Below, in pieces: positions 30,637 through 63,810 of a DNA stretch of 64,000 bases. The stretch comes from Candidatus Nitrososphaera evergladensis SR1 (GTDB lineage Archaea > Thermoproteota > Nitrososphaeria > Nitrososphaerales > Nitrososphaeraceae): the NCBI RefSeq assembly GCF_000730285.1, contig NZ_CP007174.1, forward strand, positions 930,001 to 994,000, in the 5' to 3' direction. Positions within the stretch are counted from its first letter, which is position 1. Each line of letters opens with the position of its first letter. Made by a program: the position numbers and the translations under genes. The notes below the pieces were generated by a model. The model saw only the letters and a list, made by a program, of their open reading frames with translations, was not told the DNA's origin and did not search any database.

Positions 30637-30951
30637 CTAATCGTCTACGGCTTTTTTCGCACTCACTTGTATTTTTCCTACTTCCCTAATGTATCGCTTT
30701 ATCTCATCATATACGTCATCACGCGTATCCAATGCAACGATCATAATTTTCTCTTCATCATAAGAATAGACGGCTCTAAATTTTCCGAATTTATATTTGA
30801 AATATCCCGCGAGATCTCCAGTTAAAAGAATTCCAACCTGGGGGTTTTCCCTGATTTCTTCTATTGCCTTTGCTACCCTCTTTTGTGTATAAGAATCAAG
30901 TTTAGAAAATTCTTTTTCGACCTTTCGACGCCCAAAGAAGACTTCGCGCAT
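30637..30951 (-). CDS. RelE/ParE-type toxin
   Basis: 104 residues with the RelE/ParE fold: VEKEFSKLDSYTQKRVAKAI, then LAGYFKYKFGKFRAVYSYDE and IMIVALDTRDDVYDEI. The R-V-x-Y strand and the C-terminal Arg-rich helix are typical of mRNA-cleaving RelE enzymes, though ParE toxins look similar. It lies 6 bases downstream of the specificity-subunit gene and is probably on the same transcript. The usual same-strand antitoxin is missing. Confidence 0.8.
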   Translation of the reverse strand: MREVFFGRRKVEKEFSKLDSYTQKRVAKAIEEIRENPQVGILLTGDLAGYFKYKFGKFRAVYSYDEEKIMIVALDTRDDVYDEIKRYIREVGKIQVSAKKAVDD

Positions 30952-30957
30952 CCAGTA

Positions 30958-32556
30958 TCATAACCCATATTTTGACTTGATATCATCAAATGATACCACA
31001 TATCCTTCATCCACCTCGTTGATTCCTTCATAGATTTTGTTTACCGAATCCACTTTTGCTTTTAGTTCTATGGTCTCTTCGAGTGCTTTTCTCAAGTTGT
31101 CAACGCTACTAAACTTGATGGATCCTTCGAGTAAGTTTTCCAGCAGGCTTACCGTTTCGTGTTCCACTAGAGCAGCCAAATCTTTGAATGCATATGCCTC
31201 CCTCGTAAGCTGAGAAATCGCATTATGTACTGACTGGTCATGGATTACTGCTATCAGAACCTGGCCAATGTCTTTCTCGCCAATTTCATCTACTACACCC
31301 CCATAGGTCTTTGCAACAACCTGATTGTATCCATATGGTGTTGATAGGAATGTAGCGATGTAGGCTGCATCTACAGGATACTCTAATTCGGAGGGCTTGT
31401 CCTTATGCGGAATAATTCTGAGAATATGCTGTGAAGCAGCCCACCCATCCGTAATCGGGGTCGTCAGCCCAATTCTTCCGATTGTTCCCGAACATGTCAC
31501 CAGTGTCCAACCCGGCTTAATTATCCAATTATTAAGACTGGCAGTCATTTTTCTTGATAGGTACTTGAGATTGAATGGCCTGTTCATGGGCAAGTCGCTT
31601 CCCTGTAAGAATGGGATGCCGTATTCCTTTTCAACGTAGATTCGCTTGAAACGTGGAGCGACGATAACTTTACCCAAGTCTTTTGTCTTTACAAGTTTTG
31701 TCGAGGATTTTCTCAGCATCCGCAAAGTCTCTATTAGCACAGGGTTGTGAAATGAGGCATCTAATCTCGTGTCCAGCGAGGATGATTTGAGTGAAAACGA
31801 TTTTCTGTTCTTTAGTGGGTTATCAATTTCCCGGGTGAGACCTGCAGAATCGTAAAAGAGTGCTTCAGCCTCGTCTAGCTTCTTATTTGCTTGCTGGCGT
31901 AACGAATAAGCATATTTTATTTGATGATCGAATAATCCCATTATTTTCTTATCCAAGATGGGAACTGCCAAATCCTCAATCTGGTGAGGCTCAACATGAT
32001 TTATTGCCAGGCCATACTGATCCCGGGTTACAACAGACTGTGCAATCCATGTTGAGAGAAATGCATAGAGATAACCTGAAGGAATTTCTTCTTCGTTGGG
32101 TATAATTCGAATAAGATCGTGCGTGAGTACAAACTGGGAAAGATTTTTGTCAACGATGGTAAGCCGTCCGATAACTCCAGAGCATGTCATCAGAATCCAA
32201 CCTTCTTTTACGAGGAGATCGTCCAAATTCTCCGTCTTTGATTTTGAAAGATACCTTTCACTTTTCGGCCTGAACATCAAGGTCTCAGTTGCACTGAGAT
32301 AAGGGATCCCCTTTTCCTTGTCACCTGCATAAATTCTCTTGAAGCGGTAACCACTAAACATTTTTCTTTGAACCAGTGTTTTGAGGGGACGTGTTGAAAA
32401 GCGTTTGTCATTTAGTATCCGCAATGCCAGATCTTTTTCTTTAGCGTAGTAATCAGCATCAAGCCTCAAATCGCCAGAGAAAATCCAGCTAGACTTTAAG
32501 GAGAGACTTCGAAGTGTCGCCGCATTTTGATGCTCTTCTCTTGAAACTAGCGCCAT
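30958..32556 (-). CDS. hsdS: Type I/IIG restriction specificity subunit (HsdS)
   Basis: 532 residues from the ATG at 32556, directly after the upstream TAA, indicating coupling. Two target-recognition domains in tandem (about 30-200 and 260-440) each contain the LVKEGWILMTCSGVIGR-type segment, with conserved helical spacers between and after. It recognises a bipartite DNA site and guides the methylase and nuclease. Full-length with two domains, so functional by appearance. Confidence 0.88.
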   Translation of the reverse strand: MALVSREEHQNAATLRSLSLKSSWIFSGDLRLDADYYAKEKDLALRILNDKRFSTRPLKTLVQRKMFSGYRFKRIYAGDKEKGIPYLSATETLMFRPKSERYLSKSKTENLDDLLVKEGWILMTCSGVIGRLTIVDKNLSQFVLTHDLIRIIPNEEEIPSGYLYAFLSTWIAQSVVTRDQYGLAINHVEPHQIEDLAVPILDKKIMGLFDHQIKYAYSLRQQANKKLDEAEALFYDSAGLTREIDNPLKNRKSFSLKSSSLDTRLDASFHNPVLIETLRMLRKSSTKLVKTKDLGKVIVAPRFKRIYVEKEYGIPFLQGSDLPMNRPFNLKYLSRKMTASLNNWIIKPGWTLVTCSGTIGRIGLTTPITDGWAASQHILRIIPHKDKPSELEYPVDAAYIATFLSTPYGYNQVVAKTYGGVVDEIGEKDIGQVLIAVIHDQSVHNAISQLTREAYAFKDLAALVEHETVSLLENLLEGSIKFSSVDNLRKALEETIELKAKVDSVNKIYEGINEVDEGYVVSFDDIKSKYGL

Positions 32557-32557
32557 C

Positions 32558-34528
32558 TTATTTCCTGCCTTTCCTATTCCACCATTCCACAAATTCATCG
32601 CCAATATGTGGTAAATCATCATCCAAGATGGGTTCCTTCGTGACTAGCTTTTCTCTTACTTTGCTCCTGTCAACAATTTTTACTATGTATGTCTCCTTCT
32701 CAATTTCTATCATTTCGCCCTCGGGAGTCCTCTTGAAGATGCTGTCGCCTCTACTGTTTTTTCCCACTTTGCCAGCTATGGCCATGAATACGTCATAGTC
32801 AGGAAGCTTCCCACCTTTCTTCTCTAGGGCCATCTCTGTCTCGTTCTTTCGTTCAAGTATCAGAAGGCTGGTTTTCGTCCCGGTTGAAGGTTCAAACGCT
32901 TCTTTTGCCAGGTCAATGCTGGCTATAACTTTGGTATGCGTAAGAATCCAATGGCGAACGTACTTTAGCCCTGGATTACTGAGGACAGAGTCGGGCAGAA
33001 CGATTGCCAGTTTGCCATTCGGTTTTAACAGTTGAACAGATCTTTCGATGAACAAGAGTTGTGGAGGCATTCGTGATTTAATGTCATCAGTCCTTTCGAG
33101 TATTCCATCATCATTTTCTTTCCAGACGTGTGCCAGATCATACTGCGATAGGAGATGTCGGTCATCAATGATAATATTCTCTCCGAATGGTGGATTTGTC
33201 ATTAACATATCAAAGGAGCCAAGCTTGACTTTTTCCGCAACATCAATTGGCCATTCACCAGGAGCTTTCAGGGAGTCCACCGAGAAAAGATTGCTAGAGC
33301 CATTACCATGGATGACCTCATTCATCTGCGCTGCTTGAACCAGAACTTCATTAAAGTCAATTCCATATAGACACCTAGCACAATACATTCTAATTTCATC
33401 ATCTACGATTTGCATTGCCCTCTCATGCGAAGGGTCCTTGGCAATCTCTCTATCATAATAATACTGCCTCATTGTGTCTATGACAGATATCAGGAATCCA
33501 CCTGTCCCGCAGGCAGGGTCTATTATCTTTGCATCTTGAATCTGTTGCTTCGTATGCATCGCAAGGAGTATTCTTACTGCCAATCGGCAAATGTTCCTTG
33601 GAGTGAAATATTCTCCAAGACTGCCGCGCAAATTCTTACCGACAAGTTCTTCGTATGCATCGCCTTTTACATCAGCGTCGGTTCGGAGCAGATAATAATT
33701 CTGTAATTGACCTACAACATAAGCAAGGACTCTCGGATTTAGTAGAATCTTTGGGTCATTTTTGAATATGTATTGATACTGTTTTCTAACCGAGTCGAAT
33801 AATTCGTCTATGCGTTTTTTTACACTCATCGCCCCCATGTCTGAGCCAATTTCTTTGTTCGTTACATAGAAGTGGATTTCGTCCGACCTCTCATCATAGA
33901 CTTTGCAGAATATTAGCTTGAGCAGTTCGTGAAATGCTTGGTCTTCTCTCATTCCTTGTCGGCCATATATGTAATCATTAATACGTTTGAAAACAGACTT
34001 TAGCTCTGTAGCTGGACGAAGCTGGGTAAAATCAGGTTTTTCATACTCTTCGATTGTCTTCCCATGAATGGGTATGTCAATGACAGGCTTGGGCTCATAC
34101 TTCTGTCCCTTTGTCTTTGATTCTATCTTCTGAAAGCATAGCTTTTCAAGACCGTTTGTCCACAGGGCAAATTCGCAATTCATTGCACTGGAAACATAAC
34201 TTCCCAGTTGGTCTATGCCACTCTCTTTATCAGTACTCTTGATCTCTGGCCGTTTTGTTTCAACTATGATGTAGATGTTTTCTTGTAGTGGTGGTTTTCC
34301 GTCGTGAAAAACTGCTATATCGACGGGAAGGCGCTTTCCACCTACCGCCAGTTTAAAGTTAACCCTTATCTGCGACAGGTCGTAGCCATACTCCTCGACC
34401 AAGCTTCGTATGACTCTTTGCCTGACATGCTCTTCAGGAGTCTCCTTTATCAACTCTTGAGTAAGATATGATTGTAGTTTCCCAGGAGGGACGTAACTCA
34501 CTGAATTGCCGTCTACAAATCTGTCCAT
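32558..34528 (-). CDS. Fused restriction nuclease-methylase, BcgI-like
   Basis: 656 residues. The N-terminal part is an HsdR_N-like PD-(D/E)xK nuclease: D70 in PVDIAVF and E90-T-K92 in VETKRP. A helical linker is followed by an N6-adenine methylase with motif I DPACGTGGF (337-345) and motif IV NPPF (445-448). No translocating helicase is encoded nearby. A single chain holding both nuclease and methylase, with a separate HsdS, matches the BcgI (type IIB/IIG) layout rather than classical type I. Operon order: this gene, hsdS, RelE-like toxin. Confidence 0.85.
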   Translation of the reverse strand: MDRFVDGNSVSYVPPGKLQSYLTQELIKETPEEHVRQRVIRSLVEEYGYDLSQIRVNFKLAVGGKRLPVDIAVFHDGKPPLQENIYIIVETKRPEIKSTDKESGIDQLGSYVSSAMNCEFALWTNGLEKLCFQKIESKTKGQKYEPKPVIDIPIHGKTIEEYEKPDFTQLRPATELKSVFKRINDYIYGRQGMREDQAFHELLKLIFCKVYDERSDEIHFYVTNKEIGSDMGAMSVKKRIDELFDSVRKQYQYIFKNDPKILLNPRVLAYVVGQLQNYYLLRTDADVKGDAYEELVGKNLRGSLGEYFTPRNICRLAVRILLAMHTKQQIQDAKIIDPACGTGGFLISVIDTMRQYYYDREIAKDPSHERAMQIVDDEIRMYCARCLYGIDFNEVLVQAAQMNEVIHGNGSSNLFSVDSLKAPGEWPIDVAEKVKLGSFDMLMTNPPFGENIIIDDRHLLSQYDLAHVWKENDDGILERTDDIKSRMPPQLLFIERSVQLLKPNGKLAIVLPDSVLSNPGLKYVRHWILTHTKVIASIDLAKEAFEPSTGTKTSLLILERKNETEMALEKKGGKLPDYDVFMAIAGKVGKNSRGDSIFKRTPEGEMIEIEKETYIVKIVDRSKVREKLVTKEPILDDDLPHIGDEFVEWWNRKGRK

Positions 34529-54506: not shown

Positions 54507-55338
54507 GAGCGATAATGACACATGACTGAATCTGTGGATAATGTCCTAATGCTTTAAGGAGAGGGCTTTGTCATTTAAACTCCGTTACCACATCTGGAAG
54601 ACTACATACGTCATCTCCCAAGAAAAAATCTGCATATCTGCGACCCTTTGACATGTTCGTACAAGGGAAAAAGAGGATGCTAGATAGTCTGCCTGATCTC
54701 GGCTATTGACGATTTTTATTACTATTCATCGTACAGGCGATTGTGTTCTCAATTAATCATGGAGCACAAGGTGGAACACTTTACTACCTCTAACTCGTTA
54801 TAGTCTCTGAAGCCGCTTTAAAGAACTATTATTATGGCGGGCCCGTCGGGATTGCATCATGCGAGTTGGCATGATTTTGGGTAGAACCCCTTGACGGACT
54901 GGCAAGAAATAGTTTCTTGTCTGGCTCCACAGTGCATCGTATTCTTTTTCGGCATTGTGGAACATCATTATTTGAAAACTGGCGGAATGATATAAGGTTA
55001 TAGAATAATTATTCTTTTTTAATGGAGAGTAGACACGTTCCAATGGGTGGACATGGTGGACAAGTTAGAACTAAAGAATGACTCAGCTCACGCAAATTAT
55101 TCGGAGTATCACAACAAAATGGACGTATAAGCTATCGTGAACGTCTTTGTCAGCGTGTACAGTCGAATAACTTAGTTTTATACACTGTTGAATATGCGGG
55201 TGATTTTCCTCCCGCGTTGAATCAGGGTCATGGCTTGTTGAATTAGGGAGATAAAGTTAAAGCTAGAAAAGTTTTCTGCATAAAAAGATAATAACCTGAT
55301 CCTTTTTTCTACGAGACGGAACGGCGGTATAGTGAATA
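54507..55338. other. 830-base region without protein genes
   Basis: Apart from the candidate RNA at 54838-54921, no supported gene is seen. A 19-codon frame near 55021 is too short to call. A TTTAAAG box at 54819-54825 suits transcription of the RNA. Confidence 0.4.
54838..54921 (+). ncRNA. Candidate small structured RNA
   Basis: The sequence folds into a closing 5-bp stem CCGTC/GACGG (54843-54847 with 54893-54897) holding two hairpins: ATCATGC-gagttg-GCATGAT (54856-54875) and GGGT-AGA-ACCC (54879-54889). A third hairpin GGCAAGAAA-TAG-TTTCTTGTC (54901-54921) follows. A TTTAAAG box lies about 20-25 bases upstream. No match to tRNA, C/D or H/ACA patterns was found. It marks the edge of the right-hand element. 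Confidence 0.45.
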
Positions 55339-55971
55339 GTGCTTCCTAAGACAGTCCAGGAATTTTACCCCTTTGCAGTTCATACGATATATGCCGTTAT
55401 AATTACACTTAGCTTTGAAGTTGCTAGTCATCTACTTATTCCCATTGAAAACGTCTTTTCCTCATGGGATAACATTCTAAGAAGTGCAGGGCTGATGCTG
55501 GCGTACATCATCATAATTTCTGGATGGATTGGATATACCAAGTCCATTAGTAAACGTCCTCACAGTGAAAATCATCTAGGTAACGCGCGATTTGTAATGG
55601 ATTTGGTTATTCTCTTTCTTGTATTCTATCTGATGAGTTTTGCAAACGAGGAGGATGTACCTGGTGTGATAACTGACAAATTACCCGCGAACGTGATTAT
55701 GAAAATTAACAGCATAGTCACGATACAGGAGTTCGTTTACTTCTTTGCCAGTTTCAGATACGCGCTCGCTACTACTTATTTCGCACTGAAAGATGCTCAA
55801 AAGATTGCACCGCCGCCCTATATTGTTGGAAGTTATCTATATGATATAGTAGCAGCATGGAATCTAACGCATCATCGCGAGCCGTTGACCCTTGGATATA
55901 TGATGGCAGCAACAGAACAAATTGCAAATAATGCAGCAGATGTTCACGCTGATGCCGCGTGTTATAGATAG
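55339..55971 (+). CDS. Four-helix membrane protein
   Basis: 210 residues from a GTG at 55339. Four membrane helices (about 13-33, 47-67, 83-103 and 125-150), then a soluble C-terminal part with IAPPPYIVGSYLYDIVAAWN. No family recognised. It may belong to the integrated element. Convergent with the next gene. Confidence 0.6.
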   Translation: MLPKTVQEFYPFAVHTIYAVIITLSFEVASHLLIPIENVFSSWDNILRSAGLMLAYIIIISGWIGYTKSISKRPHSENHLGNARFVMDLVILFLVFYLMSFANEEDVPGVITDKLPANVIMKINSIVTIQEFVYFFASFRYALATTYFALKDAQKIAPPPYIVGSYLYDIVAAWNLTHHREPLTLGYMMAATEQIANNAADVHADAACYR

Positions 55972-55980
55972 ACGGCAGTC

Positions 55981-56412
55981 CTAAGCCTTCTTTGACCTGC
56001 CCTGACCTCGAGTCTTGCGTGCTTTAGTTCTCTCATATGTCGCAAAGAGCTCAGGAGCATATTTCTTTGCAAATCTCACATATTCATCCAGCGCCTGCAC
56101 TCTCGTACAGGAGAGGTTGCCCTTTTTGTCTAAAGAGATCGCTATAGGAACCTGCGCCCGCGTATCGTACATTACCACCCGTCCCGGGCCTTTGCTGACG
56201 AGCATGAGGCGGGGCAGGTTGTGCCTATTTATGTACAGTTTTACAAGCAGGTCAAGATAATCGGAAATCAGCGGGTTTCCATAGACTTCTCCTATCTCCT
56301 TCTGAAAAGCTTGAAACTCTGCCTTTAGCGTGTCCACCGTTGACGCCAGCAGGTTGATTGTCTTGTACCCGTAGTTTGTAAGGTAGGACTGCGCCTCCTT
56401 CTTCTCCGCCAA
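55981..56412 (-). CDS. Hypothetical protein of the element
   Basis: 143 residues. A helical start (AEKKEAQSYLTNYGYKTINL) with SDYLDLLVKLYINRHNLPRL, then a beta-rich centre (RVVMYDTRAQVPIAISLDKK) and a basic tail (KARKTRGQGRSKKA). Not recognised. It is divergent from the replication-like operon, with the 11-bp inverted repeat in between, so it could be a regulator. Confidence 0.55.
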   Translation of the reverse strand: MAEKKEAQSYLTNYGYKTINLLASTVDTLKAEFQAFQKEIGEVYGNPLISDYLDLLVKLYINRHNLPRLMLVSKGPGRVVMYDTRAQVPIAISLDKKGNLSCTRVQALDEYVRFAKKYAPELFATYERTKARKTRGQGRSKKA

Positions 56413-56424
56413 TTGGCCGGGAGT

Positions 56425-56554
56425 GCTCTACCCCAATATTTCAAACTTGTGACAAGTGAGCCGTACACATCCTACATATAGAAATCTTCTACAAAAAATG
56501 CAAATACTAATTCACCAAAGTAGAGAATTTGCGCTTATTGTACTGGGGTAGAGC
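56425..56554. promoter_or_regulatory. Inverted repeat GCTCTACCCCA in divergent control region
   Basis: GCTCTACCCCA at 56425-56435 and TGGGGTAGAGC at 56544-56554 are perfect 11-bp inverted copies about 108 bases apart. Each lies near one of the two divergent genes, so a dimeric regulator could bind both. The region between is AT-rich. Confidence 0.6.
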
Positions 56555-56629
56555 ATAAACTGCATAAACAAACAAACAATATTGTAATTTACGCAAAGTA
56601 TTAAAGCACTTGGCTTATTATTATTAGTA

Positions 56630-56845
56630 ATGGCACAAACGACCGTAACTCGAAATCAAGGCGTGCTATTGCATTGCGGCCACTGTGGAAAAAAGTGGGT
56701 TTATTCCGGCGGCAATAGTGAATACGCCACCTGTCCCGACTGCCGTCGCCTCGTAAAAATACAAAAAAACTTGAAGGGCACTAAGCTACCAACTGAGGCC
56801 CTTCAAGTTCACTCTCCTACTGAGGTAGAGCGCTATGATAGATAA
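56630..56845 (+). CDS. Zinc-ribbon small protein
   Basis: 71 residues. LLHCGHCGKKWVYSGG and YATCPDCRRLVKIQKN give a C-x2-C...C-x2-C ribbon. First gene of an overlapping operon with 56835. Probably binds nucleic acid. Such tiny ribbons are common in archaeal plasmids and viruses. Confidence 0.65.
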   Translation: MAQTTVTRNQGVLLHCGHCGKKWVYSGGNSEYATCPDCRRLVKIQKNLKGTKLPTEALQVHSPTEVERYDR

Positions 56846-57221
56846 CGAAAAAGACGTTGTTAAATCTTCCCCTGTAATATGGCGGGCTTTCAGGGACTAC
56901 GAGAGCGTGCTATCGGATGATTTCGCAAACGCATATCCTGAATTGGCAAGCAAGATTCAAGACGCTAAAGGCGCGTTTCAAACTGGCAGGACGATGACTG
57001 ACGGCCCTTACATCTACTGGTATAGAATCGTGTATGCAAAAGACGGCCGCATTTTGACTTTCGTAAATCGTAAGCAAAAAGCAGACAGAAAGCAGGATTT
57101 CAAAAATGAAACCCTGACCTGCTTGCACGCAATAGTCAAAAACACGACACTACAGACAGAGCTCCTTAAGCGCATTGATGAAAAACTTGCACCGGTCCGC
57201 GACCACTATGAAAGAGGATGA
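56835..57221 (+). CDS. Hypothetical element protein
   Basis: 128 residues from the ATG at 56835, overlapping the previous gene by 11 bases. Mixed alpha/beta, with a beta hairpin YIYWYRIVYAKDGRILTFVN and helical ends. Its stop overlaps the start of the next gene (ATGA). No family recognised. Confidence 0.6.
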   Translation: MIDNEKDVVKSSPVIWRAFRDYESVLSDDFANAYPELASKIQDAKGAFQTGRTMTDGPYIYWYRIVYAKDGRILTFVNRKQKADRKQDFKNETLTCLHAIVKNTTLQTELLKRIDEKLAPVRDHYERG

Positions 57222-59068
57222 TCATCGTGGCAACACTTGAAGTAACAATTCACCGAGAGGGCAATATTGTTTGCATCGATGGCACAAAAGCAAGTGTCAC
57301 GTTCAAGCCGCGCGACAAGGATAAGACATTCAAGGCGCTGATAGAAAAATGCGCCCTACTTGACAAGGGTTTTGAAGATAAAACTGAGCTTGAATATCTG
57401 AAAAACAGTATCGAGATACAACTGACGCAAATCTATCAAGATTACGAACGAGAACGAGCAAGAAAAGAAAAGCCCAAGAAAAAGGATCTGGTTGTAACTC
57501 GTGAGATAAAGAAGCTTGATATTTCATTTGAGGATTGGCAAAAACAACTCTTTGAAAAATACAACAAGGTCAAAGAAAAGGCGGATGCCCTATCTCCCCA
57601 TATCTGGCCGGGCCTTGACTTTGCGCTATCTGTCAAGATGATCCTGCACATCAAAAACTGCACATTGCCATTTTTTGGTGTCATACTTGGTAGGCCTAGC
57701 TCATGGAAGACGTTCATCATCGAACTTTTCAGGGATGCAGCATTTACAAAGTACAGCGACGCATTCACACCGAAGGCTTTCGTCTCTCATTATTCTGGGT
57801 TCACAGAAGAGGAGCTGAAGGAGATCGACTTGCTACCAAAAATCAAAGATAGCACATTCTTGACGCCAGAACTTTCACCAATATTTACCAAAAGAGAAGA
57901 GGAATTAACGGAGCTATTCGGCATAATCACGCGCATACTTGACGGTCATGGTTATACGAGCGACAGCGGCGCACAAGGGTCAAGAGGCTACCACGGCGAG
58001 TACATGTTTACGTGGATAGGTGCAGGCGTCGAGGTTCCGAGACGGGTGCACAAGCTGCTTGGCACACTTGGGCCGAAACTGTACTTTTTCAGACTCAAAG
58101 CAGACGATAAGAGTGAAGAGGATTACGTCAAGGCACTAATCCTTGATGATTATCCAGTTAAACGTAATGCCCTTGTGGATGCAATGTCAGACTATCTTTC
58201 ATTTTTTGAGAGAGGTCCGGCAATGGAACTTGTTGCAGGTGTGCCAAAAATGAAGATGGAAAATGCAGGACAGGATGATCTAAAACTGATAGTGCGACTT
58301 GCCAAACTGTTAGGGCGGCTGCGTGGCGTCATTCCGACATGGGAAACTTCAGGCACTGAAGGCGCAAACTACGCTTATTCATTGCCGACTATCGAAGAGC
58401 CAAGTAGAGCCATCACCTTATTGTACAACCTATCAAAGGGCCATGCGCTTGCACAAGGCCGGACATGCATCAACCTTTCAGATATTGCTTCCCTGATCAA
58501 TGTTGTGCTATCGACTGCACCGGTTGAAAGAGTCGCAATTTTTGACCTGCTACTGGCCCATGATGGAGTACTAACAACTACTGACATAACAGAGGGATTG
58601 AACACAACAAATCCGACAGCAAGACGGACCATGACTGAGCTCAAGGCGCTAGGCTTAGTCCATGAGGAGCAGGACGGTTCAAATCATGAGTGGAAGATAA
58701 CACTGAAAGAAGAGTTCGCATGGTTCAAGTCTGATCAATTTATTGCCTTAAGAGGGGGCCATTTTTCTTTCAGCGACAGCGACAATGAAAGAAATAAGCC
58801 TATACATGGATCACAATTTTCTTTCAGTGACGGTTCTGAAAGTATGGCTGAAAGAAATTTGGCCTACATGGAAGGGCAATTTATCTGCCCTCTTTGCAAC
58901 TATGACTGTAAGACATATGACGAACTAGAGCGTCACGCGGTGCAAAAACATCCCGGCAAGGCAGTCATAGCTGAATGGTCAATGAAACACAAGCAGGTCG
59001 AACTTGGCGGAGGGCTTGGAAAGCCTGTTGGCGAGACGGCAGCGAAGGAGGGCGGCAACAAAGTTTGA
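57218..59068 (+). CDS. P-loop/winged-helix/C2H2 protein, helicase-like
   Basis: 616 residues. An N-terminal charged region leads to a P-loop GRPSSWKT (about 158-165), a GAGVEVPRR sensor-like segment (about 267-275) and an RVHKLLG stretch, resembling an AAA+ or MCM-type ATPase; Walker B is not clear. A winged-helix part (about 443-505; LAHDGVLTTTDITEGLNTTN) and a C-terminal finger (CPLCNYDCKTYDELERHAVQ) follow. It probably acts on DNA of the element, as a helicase or initiator. Overlaps its neighbours at both ends. Confidence 0.6.
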   Translation: MIIVATLEVTIHREGNIVCIDGTKASVTFKPRDKDKTFKALIEKCALLDKGFEDKTELEYLKNSIEIQLTQIYQDYERERARKEKPKKKDLVVTREIKKLDISFEDWQKQLFEKYNKVKEKADALSPHIWPGLDFALSVKMILHIKNCTLPFFGVILGRPSSWKTFIIELFRDAAFTKYSDAFTPKAFVSHYSGFTEEELKEIDLLPKIKDSTFLTPELSPIFTKREEELTELFGIITRILDGHGYTSDSGAQGSRGYHGEYMFTWIGAGVEVPRRVHKLLGTLGPKLYFFRLKADDKSEEDYVKALILDDYPVKRNALVDAMSDYLSFFERGPAMELVAGVPKMKMENAGQDDLKLIVRLAKLLGRLRGVIPTWETSGTEGANYAYSLPTIEEPSRAITLLYNLSKGHALAQGRTCINLSDIASLINVVLSTAPVERVAIFDLLLAHDGVLTTTDITEGLNTTNPTARRTMTELKALGLVHEEQDGSNHEWKITLKEEFAWFKSDQFIALRGGHFSFSDSDNERNKPIHGSQFSFSDGSESMAERNLAYMEGQFICPLCNYDCKTYDELERHAVQKHPGKAVIAEWSMKHKQVELGGGLGKPVGETAAKEGGNKV

Positions 59069-59208
59069 GGGTCGATTATCGCCTTCATAATTTTTGCAAG
59101 ACGTGCGAGCTGCTATGTGCAAAGTCTGTCTTGTACTGTCCTGTCTGCAGAAGACGGGTAAGGACCCGGCCGCGCGTGGGGTTGACGCTCAAAATCATGG
59201 CAATATGA
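59065..59208 (+). CDS. 47-residue zinc-ribbon microprotein
   Basis: From the TTG at 59065, overlapping the previous stop by four bases (TTGA). It has a four-cysteine pattern NFCKTCELLCAKSVLYCPVC (C-x2-C...C-x2-C), followed by a basic tail (RRRVRTRPRV). No function assigned; co-translated with the AAA+-like protein. Confidence 0.6.
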   Translation: MRVDYRLHNFCKTCELLCAKSVLYCPVCRRRVRTRPRVGLTLKIMAI

Positions 59209-59276: not shown

Positions 59277-59576
59277 ATGCGCCTCTTCGGAGGAGAAAAG
59301 AAAAAGTTTGAATTGGGAAACGGCACAGTTGTTGAAAAATTCGACCCCGAGAAGCAATGCGCGTGGTGCGGTCGGCGACTGAATAAAGATTATCGGTATA
59401 GTGAAGGCAGGGAATTTGATGGTACCATAGAAGAGCTCGTGAAGAATTACAAAATAAATGATTATGATATAGTCACGATCGGTGGTCGTAAAATTATCGG
59501 AATCATGCAAAATTACCACGGACGCTGCGCGAACGTCATGCGTGGAAAAATAGTTGCGCCAATAGACGATTACTAA
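59277..59576 (+). CDS. Small cysteine-containing element protein
   Basis: 99 residues. CAWCGRRLNKDYRYS supplies a C-x2-C pair, with H and C near the end (NYHGRCANVMRG) as possible further ligands for one metal. The middle is charged. Not recognised. Confidence 0.5.
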   Translation: MRLFGGEKKKFELGNGTVVEKFDPEKQCAWCGRRLNKDYRYSEGREFDGTIEELVKNYKINDYDIVTIGGRKIIGIMQNYHGRCANVMRGKIVAPIDDY

Positions 59577-59598: not shown

Positions 59599-60273
59599 TT
59601 AGTAAAACCACCGGCCGATTAGATCATCGCTCTTTTTACTCTTTTTTCCGCTGCTCCGGCGTGCAGTGAAATCGAAATTGATGAGATAACCTGCAGCCGG
59701 GTTGCTACTGAAAAGATGATCACTATGTGCAGGTTCATCAGAGCGCCACACACTTTCGTACGAGACATCGGACTCAAAGCGCCTGCCGGTCGGTCGGCCT
59801 TGCCAGTCAAGTCGAAAAGCAGGAGGGCTAAAGGCCGCAGCGTAATTTGCAATATTTTGCTGTACATAATAATCATCGACACTCTGAGTTTCAGCATCCT
59901 GATAACTGTGCCTTGCCCTTCTTCCTTTTCTTGATCTCCTGCCGCCTCTGCCTCTTCCTCCACCTCCGCCGCGGCCGGCATAATAATCGCCGGCCTCTTG
60001 AAGCTCTTCTCTGATAGTGCTAGCTACCTCGACTGCGGCCTCTTTTGCGCGTTCGACTCGTTCAGATGGCTGATAAGTCGCGGCCTTTTGAATTGCTCCT
60101 CGTACGCGCTCGCCGGCTATGCGAACGCGCTCTCCTGCTTCATCTAGTTTTTCACGGGTCAGACTGCCTTTGATTTTATCGACCGGTATGTGTGGAAAGC
60201 GCTCTTTGAACATCTTGCTTCGTCGTTTTTCATCGCCTTCGCGTTCTCTTCTGATAAATTCATCCTTGTCCAC
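59599..60273 (-). CDS. Basic, partly disordered element protein
   Basis: 224 residues from a GTG at 60273, one base after the stop of the large gene. A helical, charged first part (RREREGDEKRRSKMFKERF, then repeated ERVR), a Gly/Arg-rich linker (about 100-118), and a Tyr/Ser-rich C-terminus ending DDLIGRWFY. It resembles a nucleic-acid-binding or structural protein. Co-transcribed with the giant protein. Confidence 0.55.
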   Translation of the reverse strand: MDKDEFIRREREGDEKRRSKMFKERFPHIPVDKIKGSLTREKLDEAGERVRIAGERVRGAIQKAATYQPSERVERAKEAAVEVASTIREELQEAGDYYAGRGGGGGRGRGGRRSRKGRRARHSYQDAETQSVDDYYVQQNIANYAAAFSPPAFRLDWQGRPTGRRFESDVSYESVWRSDEPAHSDHLFSSNPAAGYLINFDFTARRSSGKKSKKSDDLIGRWFY

Positions 60274-63200
60274 CTATCGCCGCCTCCTACTCCTGCTTTT
60301 CTTGCTACCGGGCAGAAATTCTCTTAGATAATCTCCATAATCGTCCATTCTATAGCCGGGCAGCCGCTTTGCTTGTTTCGTACCGAACACCGCGACGAGT
60401 GGGTCTGGTACTGCAAATAGCCTCTCAAAGTAATTGCTTTGCTCTCTTCTTGACGCCCTCGCATACTTGCCTGTTGTCTCAGGCAAAAAGAACGGGGGAA
60501 AGTCAGGCGGCCGCCTCTCAGGTGGTACTCGAGGCAGGCCGTGAAAGTCAAAGCGAGTAGCAAGCTGTTGTTGAAGCTTGAAAAGTTCCGCCGGCGTCTG
60601 CACTGGTATTTGCGTCTGTTGAGAGCGGATGAGACTGCCAGTATCGCGACTTTCACCAAAATTTGTGATTTGCTTCAAAAATCGCTGGCTATTCTCTACC
60701 GGTGTCTGCAACTGCTGCAAACCCCGCTTTTCGATCGCCGTCTCGCGTATATTTTTGCGAAGTGCTCTATCGAGGTCGCTTTCCCCTTCAAGTTTCAAGT
60801 TGCCAAGCAGTTGTTGAGTTGCGATCTGCTTTTCAGTGCCCTTTGAGTTTTGCATCTTCGCTAGCGCATTAATCATATTTTCAGATGCTTTACGCGCTTG
60901 TTCTACTGCTTGACCGGGCTTGTTGTCTACAAATTTTGCAAGGTTCATCTGAACGCGATTAGTGAAAATCTCACCCATGGAGGGCGGGCCCCGGCCTGAA
61001 GAAGAAGGCGCTGGAAAAGCGACCACCTGCGCGAGATCTGTGATTGTCTCTTGCTGCTGCGGACCTGTTTCAGCAGCGGCGGCAGCATAGCCAAAACCGC
61101 CAGCTGCACTAGACGCTGCCAAAGCAGCAGCGGCTGACGCTCCTAGCGCATTACTTAGCGATTTTTCAGCCGCTTTGCTTGCTTCTTCTTGCAAGCTCGC
61201 GTCGAAGGTGAAAGCATCAGCACGTTCTAGCGGGGTCAGAGACGTTTTGCCGATCTTCGTTACCTCCGCGGCCGGTGTAAAGTCGAATGGCCTCATAGTT
61301 TTATTTGCGCTCGTACCTGGAAGGTCCTTTAGCGCTTCTTCTGCTCCTCGTACTTGCGACGCACGCTTTGCAAGTGCACTAGCAGCCGCTTTCACCTCTT
61401 TGAGGTCGAAAGTGACCCGGCTCCATAACGGAACATCGCTTGATACCGGGATCAACGGGCTTGCTCGCACTGTGCGCTGTGGCAGCTGCTCTGCAAGATC
61501 AAGGCCAAACTCGCCAAGCTTGGGTGTTTTGCCCGTGATAGAGACCGCCGCTTTTTGAAGTGAAATGTCTGCTGCTTCAGTTGCTACTCTCGCGTCCGTA
61601 CCCAGAATCTTGCCAGCGACAGCGCCGGTAAAGCCTCTACCATAATAGTCCTTAATGTCCTTCGCGGCCAGCTCTCCAGGTTGCAAAGTACGCGGAGCAG
61701 GCGGACCTTGCCCGACTTTGGGCTGTTCAAATCCACGCAAAGCGATCTTCTGCTCTTCTGAAAGTGGAGCAGTAGCTATTCTAACCTCTCCAGCGCGAGG
61801 CAATATTCTTCCAATTGTAGGCGCTGTTACATCAGCACCGGCCCTTATCGCAAAGGCCTCTGGCATTGTTGGCACCTTCAGCTGAACCTTGCCCGCAGCT
61901 AGGGTTGCAGCCTCGCCTGTTATTTCCATCTTCGGATAGATGACGCGTCCCGACTCCCAGAGTGGCCGCCAAAACGTGCCAAATGGGCCTCTTGTGAGAG
62001 GAGTTTCTGCTTTTCCTAGCGCTTGTACGGTAGTTTCTTGGTATCCTACTCGTTTTGCAGCCATCGCGGCTATTTCCTCAGCTTTGCTAACAGTAGTGCC
62101 AACTTGTGCAACTCTCGCGCCTTTTGTCACAAGGCCGGGACCTATGAAGCTCAGAGCTTCAAGGGCAAGATTGCCCGCAGCGTACGGGATGTTCTTTATG
62201 ATGTTCTCGCCGATTTTTTGAAGATCTGCAGCCTTTACGTCTGTTTTTCCTGTCGTTGCAAGCTGATAGGCGCTTTGAATAGCCAAGCTACTAAGATCTG
62301 TACCGACTCCCGACTTTAGCTCCGGCGGTTTAGGGATGTTTCTAGAAATTTCGTTTCCTTCTAGGTCGAGTGTACGGCGTGGTATCTGACGAGGCGCGAG
62401 TAATGCGGCCACGCCCTGCGCGCCATACGCCAAGTTCGCCACTAGATTTTCTGCCTCCACCTTAGTTCCCTTGGCCGCATCGATTACCGGCCCAAAAAAG
62501 CCGGGCGTCGGTGCCGGAGCATCTTTTACGAGCGGTTCTTTGCCTTCTGCACTGTGCGGCCTGTACTGACCGACAATCTGCATAGAGCCATAAAATCCCG
62601 CAGCATTGCGCATTTCCAGAGCAAACGGGTTCGTGGGTCTCATTCCTGCGCGCTGAGCAGTATATGCAGCCGACCAGTCGGCATTTTGCACTTGGTTCGC
62701 CCATCGCTCGTTCGCGGCCTGTTGCTGCGCGTAAGAATGAAAAGGATCCACCGGCTGGCCTGTCGCGGGGTCGATGTAATATCTCTGAAAATTGCGCGCA
62801 TTGTGTCCGGCAAACTTCTCTCTTGCCTCTTGTACAGTGAGCGTCCCGAATGTTTTTAGTTCATTTGGTGGATTCCGGCCAGATTTAACCACGTCGTAGG
62901 CCCAGCGCTGATAATCACCCTGATCCTGTTGTATTGGTATGCCGGATTCGTACTTGCCTCCGGGTTTTACCATGGCTAGCGCCTGCTCATTGATTTTATC
63001 AGCGGTCAAAGTGACGGGTTTTCCGGTTGCGAGAGCTTGCTCCTGTGCGGCCCTGTTCGCAGCCTGAAAGCCTCCGTAAAGTAAAGTCTGCATTGCTCCA
63101 ACCGGCAGCGTCAGACTTTCACTGTAACCGTAAAAGCGCTTTGTTTCTGCCTCTGTAGGCTGATAAACCGCGTACTGCTGCCCGTCTTTCTCTTCAAGTT

Positions 63201-63810
63201 TGACAATGCCCTTTGCGTCAAAGCCAATATCGCTTTGAGCGCCAATTGTGACGTTTTTCACCTTGCCGGATTCATCATATTCAAAACGGGCATTTTTGAA
63301 AGGATCAAAGCCCATCGGTCCCGGTGAAGTGCGCGAGTACGGTCCTATGTATTCGGGTGGATGCTGGACAGTTATCGTCGTCTGTTGTGCCATCCGTCTT
63401 TGTTCGGCTGCAACCTGCGATTGTTCAATCTGTTGACGGTAGTAATCAACCATTCCCGGCTTCGATCCTTGTGACCTGTTTTGCGCCGCTCCTGCTGCGG
63501 CTTGTCGTGCGGCCTGCTCCTGTTCTTGTCTGACCTGTAATTCGTTTCCGACATCGATTATAGTCTTACTTGCACGGCTACCACCAGAACCACCGCCACC
63601 TGCGCCCCTGTCTATGCGCCCTATGGGCGATGGTGTAGAGCCGGTAGGAGGAGAAGCCGGTGCTCCTGTCGGAGAATAACCAAAAGAGACGTTGCCTGAC
63701 GCGTCCCTGCTTGAGGTGATCTGTTGCTGCTGGCCTGTCTGTATCGCTTGCTGTTGCGCTGCAAGGTTTGCTTGCTGAAAGGCTGCATAACGTTCAGCTA
63801 GGGTTGACAT
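60274..63810 (-). CDS. Giant low-complexity protein of the element
   Basis: 1178 residues, rich in Ala, Gln, Pro, Gly and Thr. A disordered Gln/Gly/Ser-rich N-terminus (1-150), a helical middle with moderately hydrophobic stretches (about 430-620), a further Ala-rich segment (about 900-930) and a basic C-terminus (LPGSKKSRSRRRR). No catalytic motif or known domain recognised. Size and composition suit a virion or conjugation structural protein, for example a tape-measure or surface component, which remains a guess. Confidence 0.6.
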   Translation of the reverse strand: MSTLAERYAAFQQANLAAQQQAIQTGQQQQITSSRDASGNVSFGYSPTGAPASPPTGSTPSPIGRIDRGAGGGGSGGSRASKTIIDVGNELQVRQEQEQAARQAAAGAAQNRSQGSKPGMVDYYRQQIEQSQVAAEQRRMAQQTTITVQHPPEYIGPYSRTSPGPMGFDPFKNARFEYDESGKVKNVTIGAQSDIGFDAKGIVKLEEKDGQQYAVYQPTEAETKRFYGYSESLTLPVGAMQTLLYGGFQAANRAAQEQALATGKPVTLTADKINEQALAMVKPGGKYESGIPIQQDQGDYQRWAYDVVKSGRNPPNELKTFGTLTVQEAREKFAGHNARNFQRYYIDPATGQPVDPFHSYAQQQAANERWANQVQNADWSAAYTAQRAGMRPTNPFALEMRNAAGFYGSMQIVGQYRPHSAEGKEPLVKDAPAPTPGFFGPVIDAAKGTKVEAENLVANLAYGAQGVAALLAPRQIPRRTLDLEGNEISRNIPKPPELKSGVGTDLSSLAIQSAYQLATTGKTDVKAADLQKIGENIIKNIPYAAGNLALEALSFIGPGLVTKGARVAQVGTTVSKAEEIAAMAAKRVGYQETTVQALGKAETPLTRGPFGTFWRPLWESGRVIYPKMEITGEAATLAAGKVQLKVPTMPEAFAIRAGADVTAPTIGRILPRAGEVRIATAPLSEEQKIALRGFEQPKVGQGPPAPRTLQPGELAAKDIKDYYGRGFTGAVAGKILGTDARVATEAADISLQKAAVSITGKTPKLGEFGLDLAEQLPQRTVRASPLIPVSSDVPLWSRVTFDLKEVKAAASALAKRASQVRGAEEALKDLPGTSANKTMRPFDFTPAAEVTKIGKTSLTPLERADAFTFDASLQEEASKAAEKSLSNALGASAAAALAASSAAGGFGYAAAAAETGPQQQETITDLAQVVAFPAPSSSGRGPPSMGEIFTNRVQMNLAKFVDNKPGQAVEQARKASENMINALAKMQNSKGTEKQIATQQLLGNLKLEGESDLDRALRKNIRETAIEKRGLQQLQTPVENSQRFLKQITNFGESRDTGSLIRSQQTQIPVQTPAELFKLQQQLATRFDFHGLPRVPPERRPPDFPPFFLPETTGKYARASRREQSNYFERLFAVPDPLVAVFGTKQAKRLPGYRMDDYGDYLREFLPGSKKSRSRRRR

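Follow-up and report, generated by a model that had tools for sequence, protein, structure and literature searches.

Among the closest described systems are SaPI Rep and the SCCmec proteins Cch and Cch2, in which origin binding and unwinding are both performed by a single AAA+ protein that carries a C-terminal DNA-binding domain; Cch2 is hexameric and unwinds DNA from iterons of its own (PMC7581432). A second group comprises the VirE, DUF927, and DUF3987 domains of the PrimPol-PV1 supergroup, which were predicted to be helicases because they replace known helicases in primase fusions (Kazlauskas et al., PMC5862659). Primase fusions are also known for MCM proteins of mobile elements, among them the AEP-MCM fusions that Bacillus phages and prophages encode (PMC5862659). 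A 2019 survey of thaumarchaeal elements lists 74 elements, many of them with no obvious replication protein, and proposes a reliance on host priming for elements that carry only MCM (PMC6563490).

Here we describe a 616-aa protein encoded on the plus strand at positions 57218..59068 of the window, the whole 64,000-nucleotide stretch analyzed, which corresponds to bases 930001-994000 of the single-contig genome (2,954,373 bases) of Candidatus Nitrososphaera evergladensis SR1. The protein, an MCM-like AAA+ ATPase with a winged helix and a C2H2-like finger, is predicted with a probability of about 0.78 to be the replication initiator/helicase of a tRNA-integrated element and to represent an uncatalogued MCM-like AAA+ family carrying a winged helix. 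The earlier note on this DNA had suggested that the protein may be a new helicase or initiator belonging to an archaeal plasmid or virus. This suggestion fits the MCM-like fold, the primase fusions and the adjacency of PriX and PolB genes in relatives, and the placement of the gene within a tRNA-integrated element that also encodes integrases.

The gene and its neighbors are part of an integrated mobile element of ~16.2 kb, located in a tRNA gene of this soil ammonia-oxidizing archaeon. The element spans positions 54837 to 71030 and extends outside the window; positions beyond 64000 are window-equivalent, i.e., the numbering is continued past the window end. Its borders are a 17-bp exact repeat of the tRNA 3' end: the left attachment repeat, GCGGGCCCGTCGGGATT, lies at 54837..54853, and the right one, at 71014-71030, is the 3' end of an intron-containing tRNA gene on the minus strand (71014-71107). 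By simple arithmetic, the chance of a 17-base match between stretches of 2.5 kb and 0.7 kb is ~1e-4. ARAGORN calls this gene tRNA-Stop with the anticodon 'tta', presumably because of the intron; read by eye, it is tRNA-Lys(UUU) with the loop CTTTTAA and an intron of ~19 nt. Two genes of the tyrosine-recombinase type are present, one at 66616-67554 (PF00589, 2.5e-12) and one at 69512-70915 encoding a zinc-ribbon recombinase, which itself gives no PF00589 match and is assigned through its homolog at locus L024, which does match this model (4.4e-8). The latter belongs to a cluster of nine members, eight of which come from other loci that carry the ATPase family. The element also encodes a ParB_N protein (5.9e-20) and a short ParB-like protein, and its integrase and ParB reading frames are intact.

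Related genomes present the same site in different states. A sister element at the same tRNA gene (genome G132, locus L147, G132:C1:2420001-2440000) encodes an integrase 89% identical and a ParB protein 63% identical to those of the window element; in genome G256, too, an integrase of the same type lies beside this tRNA gene, and in genome G121 (L149) no integrase adjoins it. Occupied and unoccupied variants of one site, the tRNA 3'-end repeat, and the integrase together identify a tRNA-integrated mobile element. The sister element retains relatives of three backbone proteins, namely a 143-aa protein divergent to the operon (55981..56412, minus; 77% identity, same position), a 224-aa protein (59599..60273, minus; 57% identity), and a 1178-aa Gln/Ala-rich protein (60274..63810, minus), which also has relatives in genomes G137 and G072 and shows no Pfam or PHROG match. 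A 210-aa membrane protein (55339..55971, plus) shares 67% identity with a sister-element protein across 97 aa. In place of the block containing the ATPase operon, the sister element has an integrase-like gene, a gene for an N6/N4 DNA methylase, one for a 406-aa protein (possibly the restriction partner of this methylase), and HEPN-type genes; therefore, the operon is a block that can be exchanged or lost. No capsid or packaging genes were identified by PHROG or Pfam among the element proteins scanned; no assignment was obtained for the 1178-aa protein or for two membrane proteins of small size. Elsewhere in the window (30637-34528), a RelE-like 104-aa ORF was seen by eye beside two large type I restriction-modification-like genes.

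The operon comprises four plus-strand genes. The first encodes a 71-aa zinc-ribbon protein (56630..56845), homologs of which lie 5' of family members at three other loci (L031, L053, and L055; best E 1.4e-8). The second encodes a 128-aa protein (56835..57221) that overlaps the gene upstream by 11 bases and the ATPase gene by 4 bases (ATGA); it has no homolog in Pfam, PHROG, or the compared loci, and the homology search gave no support to its kinship with proteins in equivalent positions at other loci. The ATPase gene is followed by a small zinc protein with CxxC pairs recognized by eye, which has 77 aa and a 94-base overlap if read from the ATG at 58975, or 47 aa (59065..59208) and a 4-base overlap (TTGA) if read from the in-frame TTG at 59065; from the sequence, the TTG is the likelier start. 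The overlaps of 4-11 bases originally claimed for all four genes hold with this TTG and fail with the ATG. Of the tiny zinc proteins at both ends, proposed in the earlier note as possible partners, the upstream zinc ribbon does recur beside other members, and the 47-aa protein has no relative among the compared loci. Directly 3' of the operon lies a 99-aa protein with one CxxC (59277..59576, plus), for which neither Pfam nor the homology search of the compared loci gave a homolog. Upstream of the operon, a 15-nt inverted repeat without strand assignment (56424..56555; arms 56424-56438 and 56541-56555) flanks an AT-rich space and is a candidate operator or origin/binding site. Its 12-bp core occurs twice in the window versus 0.19 occurrences expected with one mismatch allowed, and one arm is retained in the sister element. 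The repeat search revealed no clear iterons in the window element.

In the 616-aa protein, the P-loop GRPSSWKT occupies residues 158-165, the winged helix residues 439-483 (Pfam HTH_IclR, 2.9e-5), and the C-terminal C2H2-like finger residues 552-592 (zf_C2H2_ZHX, 6e-4, below the cut-off of the model), which confirms the three-part architecture first noticed in the sequence. Thirteen positions, G158, K164, D204, D242, G243, G245, G251, G285, R369, E393, R397, R415, and D422, are identical in 29/29 aligned homologs from archaea and bacteria; because of these residues, and because the upstream zinc ribbon has homologs, the protein is more than a chance ORF. The remark that Walker B is not obvious proved true of the whole family: in the 29 homologs the motif reads hh(T)PEL, with E or D always at position 218 and mostly P at 217. 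The usual first acid is missing and the sensor-1 Asn is not conserved, so that catalysis may be atypical. Position 287, the arginine-finger position (GxK/R), is K or R in all 29 homologs, and in several bacterial members it is surrounded by LGSR, recalling by eye the MCM arginine-finger motif SRFD. The Pfam model AAA_lid_2 is matched by 11 of 16 members (best 4.8e-7). The C2H2-like finger is encoded by a separate small ORF 3' of the ATPase gene at L030 and L047 and fused in the window protein, and hence looks like a detachable part. Members either begin with a module of ~100 residues that is modeled with low confidence or have almost no N-terminal part; the window protein shares this module with a different P-loop ATPase, L017 of genome G276 (phmmer 2e-12). 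A weakly similar zinc ribbon lies upstream of L017, an observation suggestive of part exchange between two helicase-like types. A suspected copy of the module in the second element of the genome (96193-96579) was not upheld by the homology test.

AlphaFold2 modeling of the full-length protein with 16 sequences yielded a mean pLDDT of 78, a value lowered by the termini, and the core alone, modeled with 29 sequences, reached a pLDDT of 91.2 and a pTM of 0.91. The earlier note would have been contradicted by the lack of an ATPase fold near residue 158; a confident AAA+ core was obtained there. The predicted core contains the P-loop, a pre-sensor-1 beta-hairpin, K/R at the arginine-finger position, and an MCM/MoxR-type lid, and is followed by the C-terminal winged helix. 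Foldseek comparison of the core with the PDB returned MCM/CMG subunits in all 50 matches listed (E 7.5e-8 to 4.9e-6), and the listed matches of the full-length model were likewise all MCM or CMG subunits, including archaeal MCM 8q67. For the core, TM-scores by query were modest at 0.40-0.49, with large rmsd values. The best viral fold matches were an uncharacterized Caudovirales protein, A0A6J5M704 (E 9.2e-15, TMt 0.68, 15% identity), and ORF A460 of Sulfolobus virus Kamchatka 1 (E 7.4e-10, 12% identity), also uncharacterized; both resemble the 616-aa protein by fold only.

Of MCM, Rep, and HerA, named for comparison in the earlier note, the protein resembles MCM by fold but is not joined to it by sequence profiles, and neither HerA nor a rolling-circle Rep is supported by the fold or motifs of the protein. 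MCM shares with the model the AAA+ core, pre-sensor-1 hairpin, lid, and C-terminal winged helix, but it differs in having PF00493 and an N-terminal domain. None of the 16 members scanned with Pfam matched PF00493, none of the scanned members matched the MCM N-terminal OB/zinc domain model, and hhalign of the family against 27 host MCMs aligned 31 columns at 13.5%. The MCM-type Walker B DE and SRF arginine finger are absent from the family, in which Walker B is degenerate. On these grounds, we rejected a true MCM. A PF00493 scan of the own genome of the element detected two other loci and not the 616-aa gene. One is a second divergent MCM gene (L042, G000:C1:2085873-2086490; PF00493 6e-42), possibly borne on a mobile element, and the MCM named for NitEve-E3 in the survey is more likely this locus at 2085873 (PMC6563490).

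SaPI Rep and SCCmec Cch and Cch2 resemble the present case as AAA+ helicases of mobile elements that are encoded beside a site-specific recombinase and carry a C-terminal DNA-binding domain, although they are of the DUF927 or D5 type, and Cch2 has iterons of its own, whereas none were detected in the window element. Among the matches listed at E<=1, the 16 scanned members showed no Pfam match to VirE, DUF927, DUF3987, or D5 (SF3), nor did bacterial members; membership of DUF927/DUF3987/VirE was therefore rejected, the separation being one by Pfam models only. These families are almost lacking in the archaeal class searched. VirE, DUF927, and DUF3987 are nevertheless comparable as uncharacterized AAA+ domains that replace helicases in primase fusions, although the primases involved in the present family, whether fused or linked, belong to the Prim-Pol, PriS-like, and PriX types.

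The best reading of the function comes from context, that is, from primase fusions and from adjacency to primase and polymerase genes. In three members, the ATPase is joined in one chain to an archaeo-eukaryotic primase: a Prim-Pol domain (2.1e-29) in L065, and a PriS-like primase with PriCT_1 (6.4e-9; PHROG primase 8.6e-41) in L060, a layout repeated in L113. That such members stand in for a known helicase next to a primase domain, as MCM does in other mobile-element fusions (PMC5862659), is the same argument as that of Kazlauskas et al. for VirE/DUF927/DUF3987 (PMC5862659). A PriX-domain protein of ~370 aa occurs in 12 of the 24 loci compared and lies directly downstream of the ATPase in 11, the PriX-type primase of L053 being ~9 kb away. 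The C-terminal PriX domain (PF18689) scored 2.8e-13 and 3.1e-11 in two scanned proteins, and AEP-like DhD and GxGxH motifs were recognized by eye. Four of these loci (L036, L037, L056, and L057) encode a family B polymerase between the ATPase and the primase (PF00136 9.2e-42 in L056); they are elements of Nitrosocosmicus-type archaea, and the compact ATPase-PolB-PriX-primase run is possibly a near-complete replisome. Fusion to, or a conserved operon with, a primase or polymerase is a property of the family and not of the window element, in which no primase or polymerase gene was found; its own genome has no PriX-type primase either (the PriX control matches in Sulfolobus). A second likely integrated element was seen by eye at window-equivalent 89180-101122 (L021-L023), with a P-loop ATPase (93774-95318), a primase-polymerase-like gene (95276-96202), and a tyrosine integrase-like gene (99791-101122).

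The simplest interpretation, by analogy with SaPI Rep, Cch, and Cch2, is that the protein probably acts as both initiator and helicase. It is unlikely, though not negligibly so, that it instead melts the origin or loads the helicase in an Orc1/Cdc6- or DnaA-like role, recruiting host MCM without translocating. The degenerate Walker B would suit such a role, the lack of a primase in the element would make recruitment of the host replisome necessary, and several members from the order, at 390-440 aa, are short and lack any further gene for DNA replication beside them. However, the fold matches are MCM subunits rather than Orc1 or DnaA, the model contains the pre-sensor-1 hairpin, and members fused to primases or located beside PolB take the place of a helicase. 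Very improbable is a regulator or defense ATPase, a winged-helix switch of the AAA+ or STAND-like type, which would be cargo and not a replication protein: the winged helix does score best against transcription regulators and CARF/Csa3-type models, and the sister element has a restriction-modification-like cassette at the same place, but the PADLOC matches are confined to the winged helix, for which reason a defense system was rejected, and the primase fusions and the linkage to PriX-primase and PolB would be hard to explain. Least probable of all is an inactive relic in a decaying element, since the non-canonical Walker B, the missing primase and polymerase, and the absence of the whole block from the sister element are opposed by an intact 616-codon frame with overlapping neighbors, the same Walker B variant in archaea and bacteria, catalytic-type residues invariant in 29/29 homologs, and intact integrase and ParB frames.

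At E<=0.001, the family was detected in 17 of the 300 genomes searched from this class, a count that includes a few matches to the N-terminal module only, e.g., in G276, and several copies are present in some genomes. GTDB representatives contributed 28 loci, including Bathyarchaeota, Micrarchaeota, Nitrospira, Wirthbacteria, a deltaproteobacterium, and Rokubacteria; most derive from metagenome bins, so mis-binning is possible. In a tree based on a small sequence set with some long branches, the AEP-fused members form one group (support 95/93), which joins the bacterial, Micrarchaeota, and L014 members in a set split from the other archaeal members (100/98). A profile scan of IMG/VR viral contigs gave one match (L071), accompanied by integrase-like and terminase-like ORFs recognized by eye, and a single-sequence scan of viral contigs gave none; no member was found in named phages or plasmids among 50,697 phage and 72,556 plasmid records. 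As the ATPase domain is covered by no Pfam, NCBIfam, PHROG, or PADLOC model, the family is, by sequence, new to these catalogs, while its putative functional kind, a mobile-element initiator/helicase, is already known. The window element may be one of the 74 surveyed, but the accessible text of the survey holds no description of it or of the 616-aa family (PMC6563490).

If the protein is an initiator/helicase, the element would be excised by its own tyrosine recombinase, and the winged helix and zinc finger would bind its origin, for which the inverted repeat at 56424-56555 is the candidate. We infer that the AAA+ core would then assemble as a ring, open the DNA, and translocate by ATP-driven helicase activity, followed by a primase and a polymerase. 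In relatives, their own PriX-type primase and PolB, or the primase domain fused to the ATPase, would serve; because the window element encodes neither enzyme, the host primase and polymerase would be recruited, as the survey proposes for MCM-only elements (PMC6563490).

With slightly less than even odds, we tentatively suggest a replicative helicase family confined to mobile elements of archaea and bacteria, sister to MCM in the AAA+ hairpin clade, with a rewired Walker B and varied primase partners. If so, the partners would be a Prim-Pol fusion, a PriS-like fusion, a stand-alone PriX-primase with PolB, or only the host primase; together these would make up a natural series of minimal replisomes around one helicase. 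The family would add an MCM-like helicase outside MCM that is comparable with it, and its non-canonical Walker B would make possible a direct test of ATP hydrolysis by the motor. It would also supply a replication protein for a set of 'cryptic' archaeal elements (cf. PMC6563490) and, as an archaeal initiator, a candidate replicon for shuttle vectors in ammonia-oxidizing archaea.
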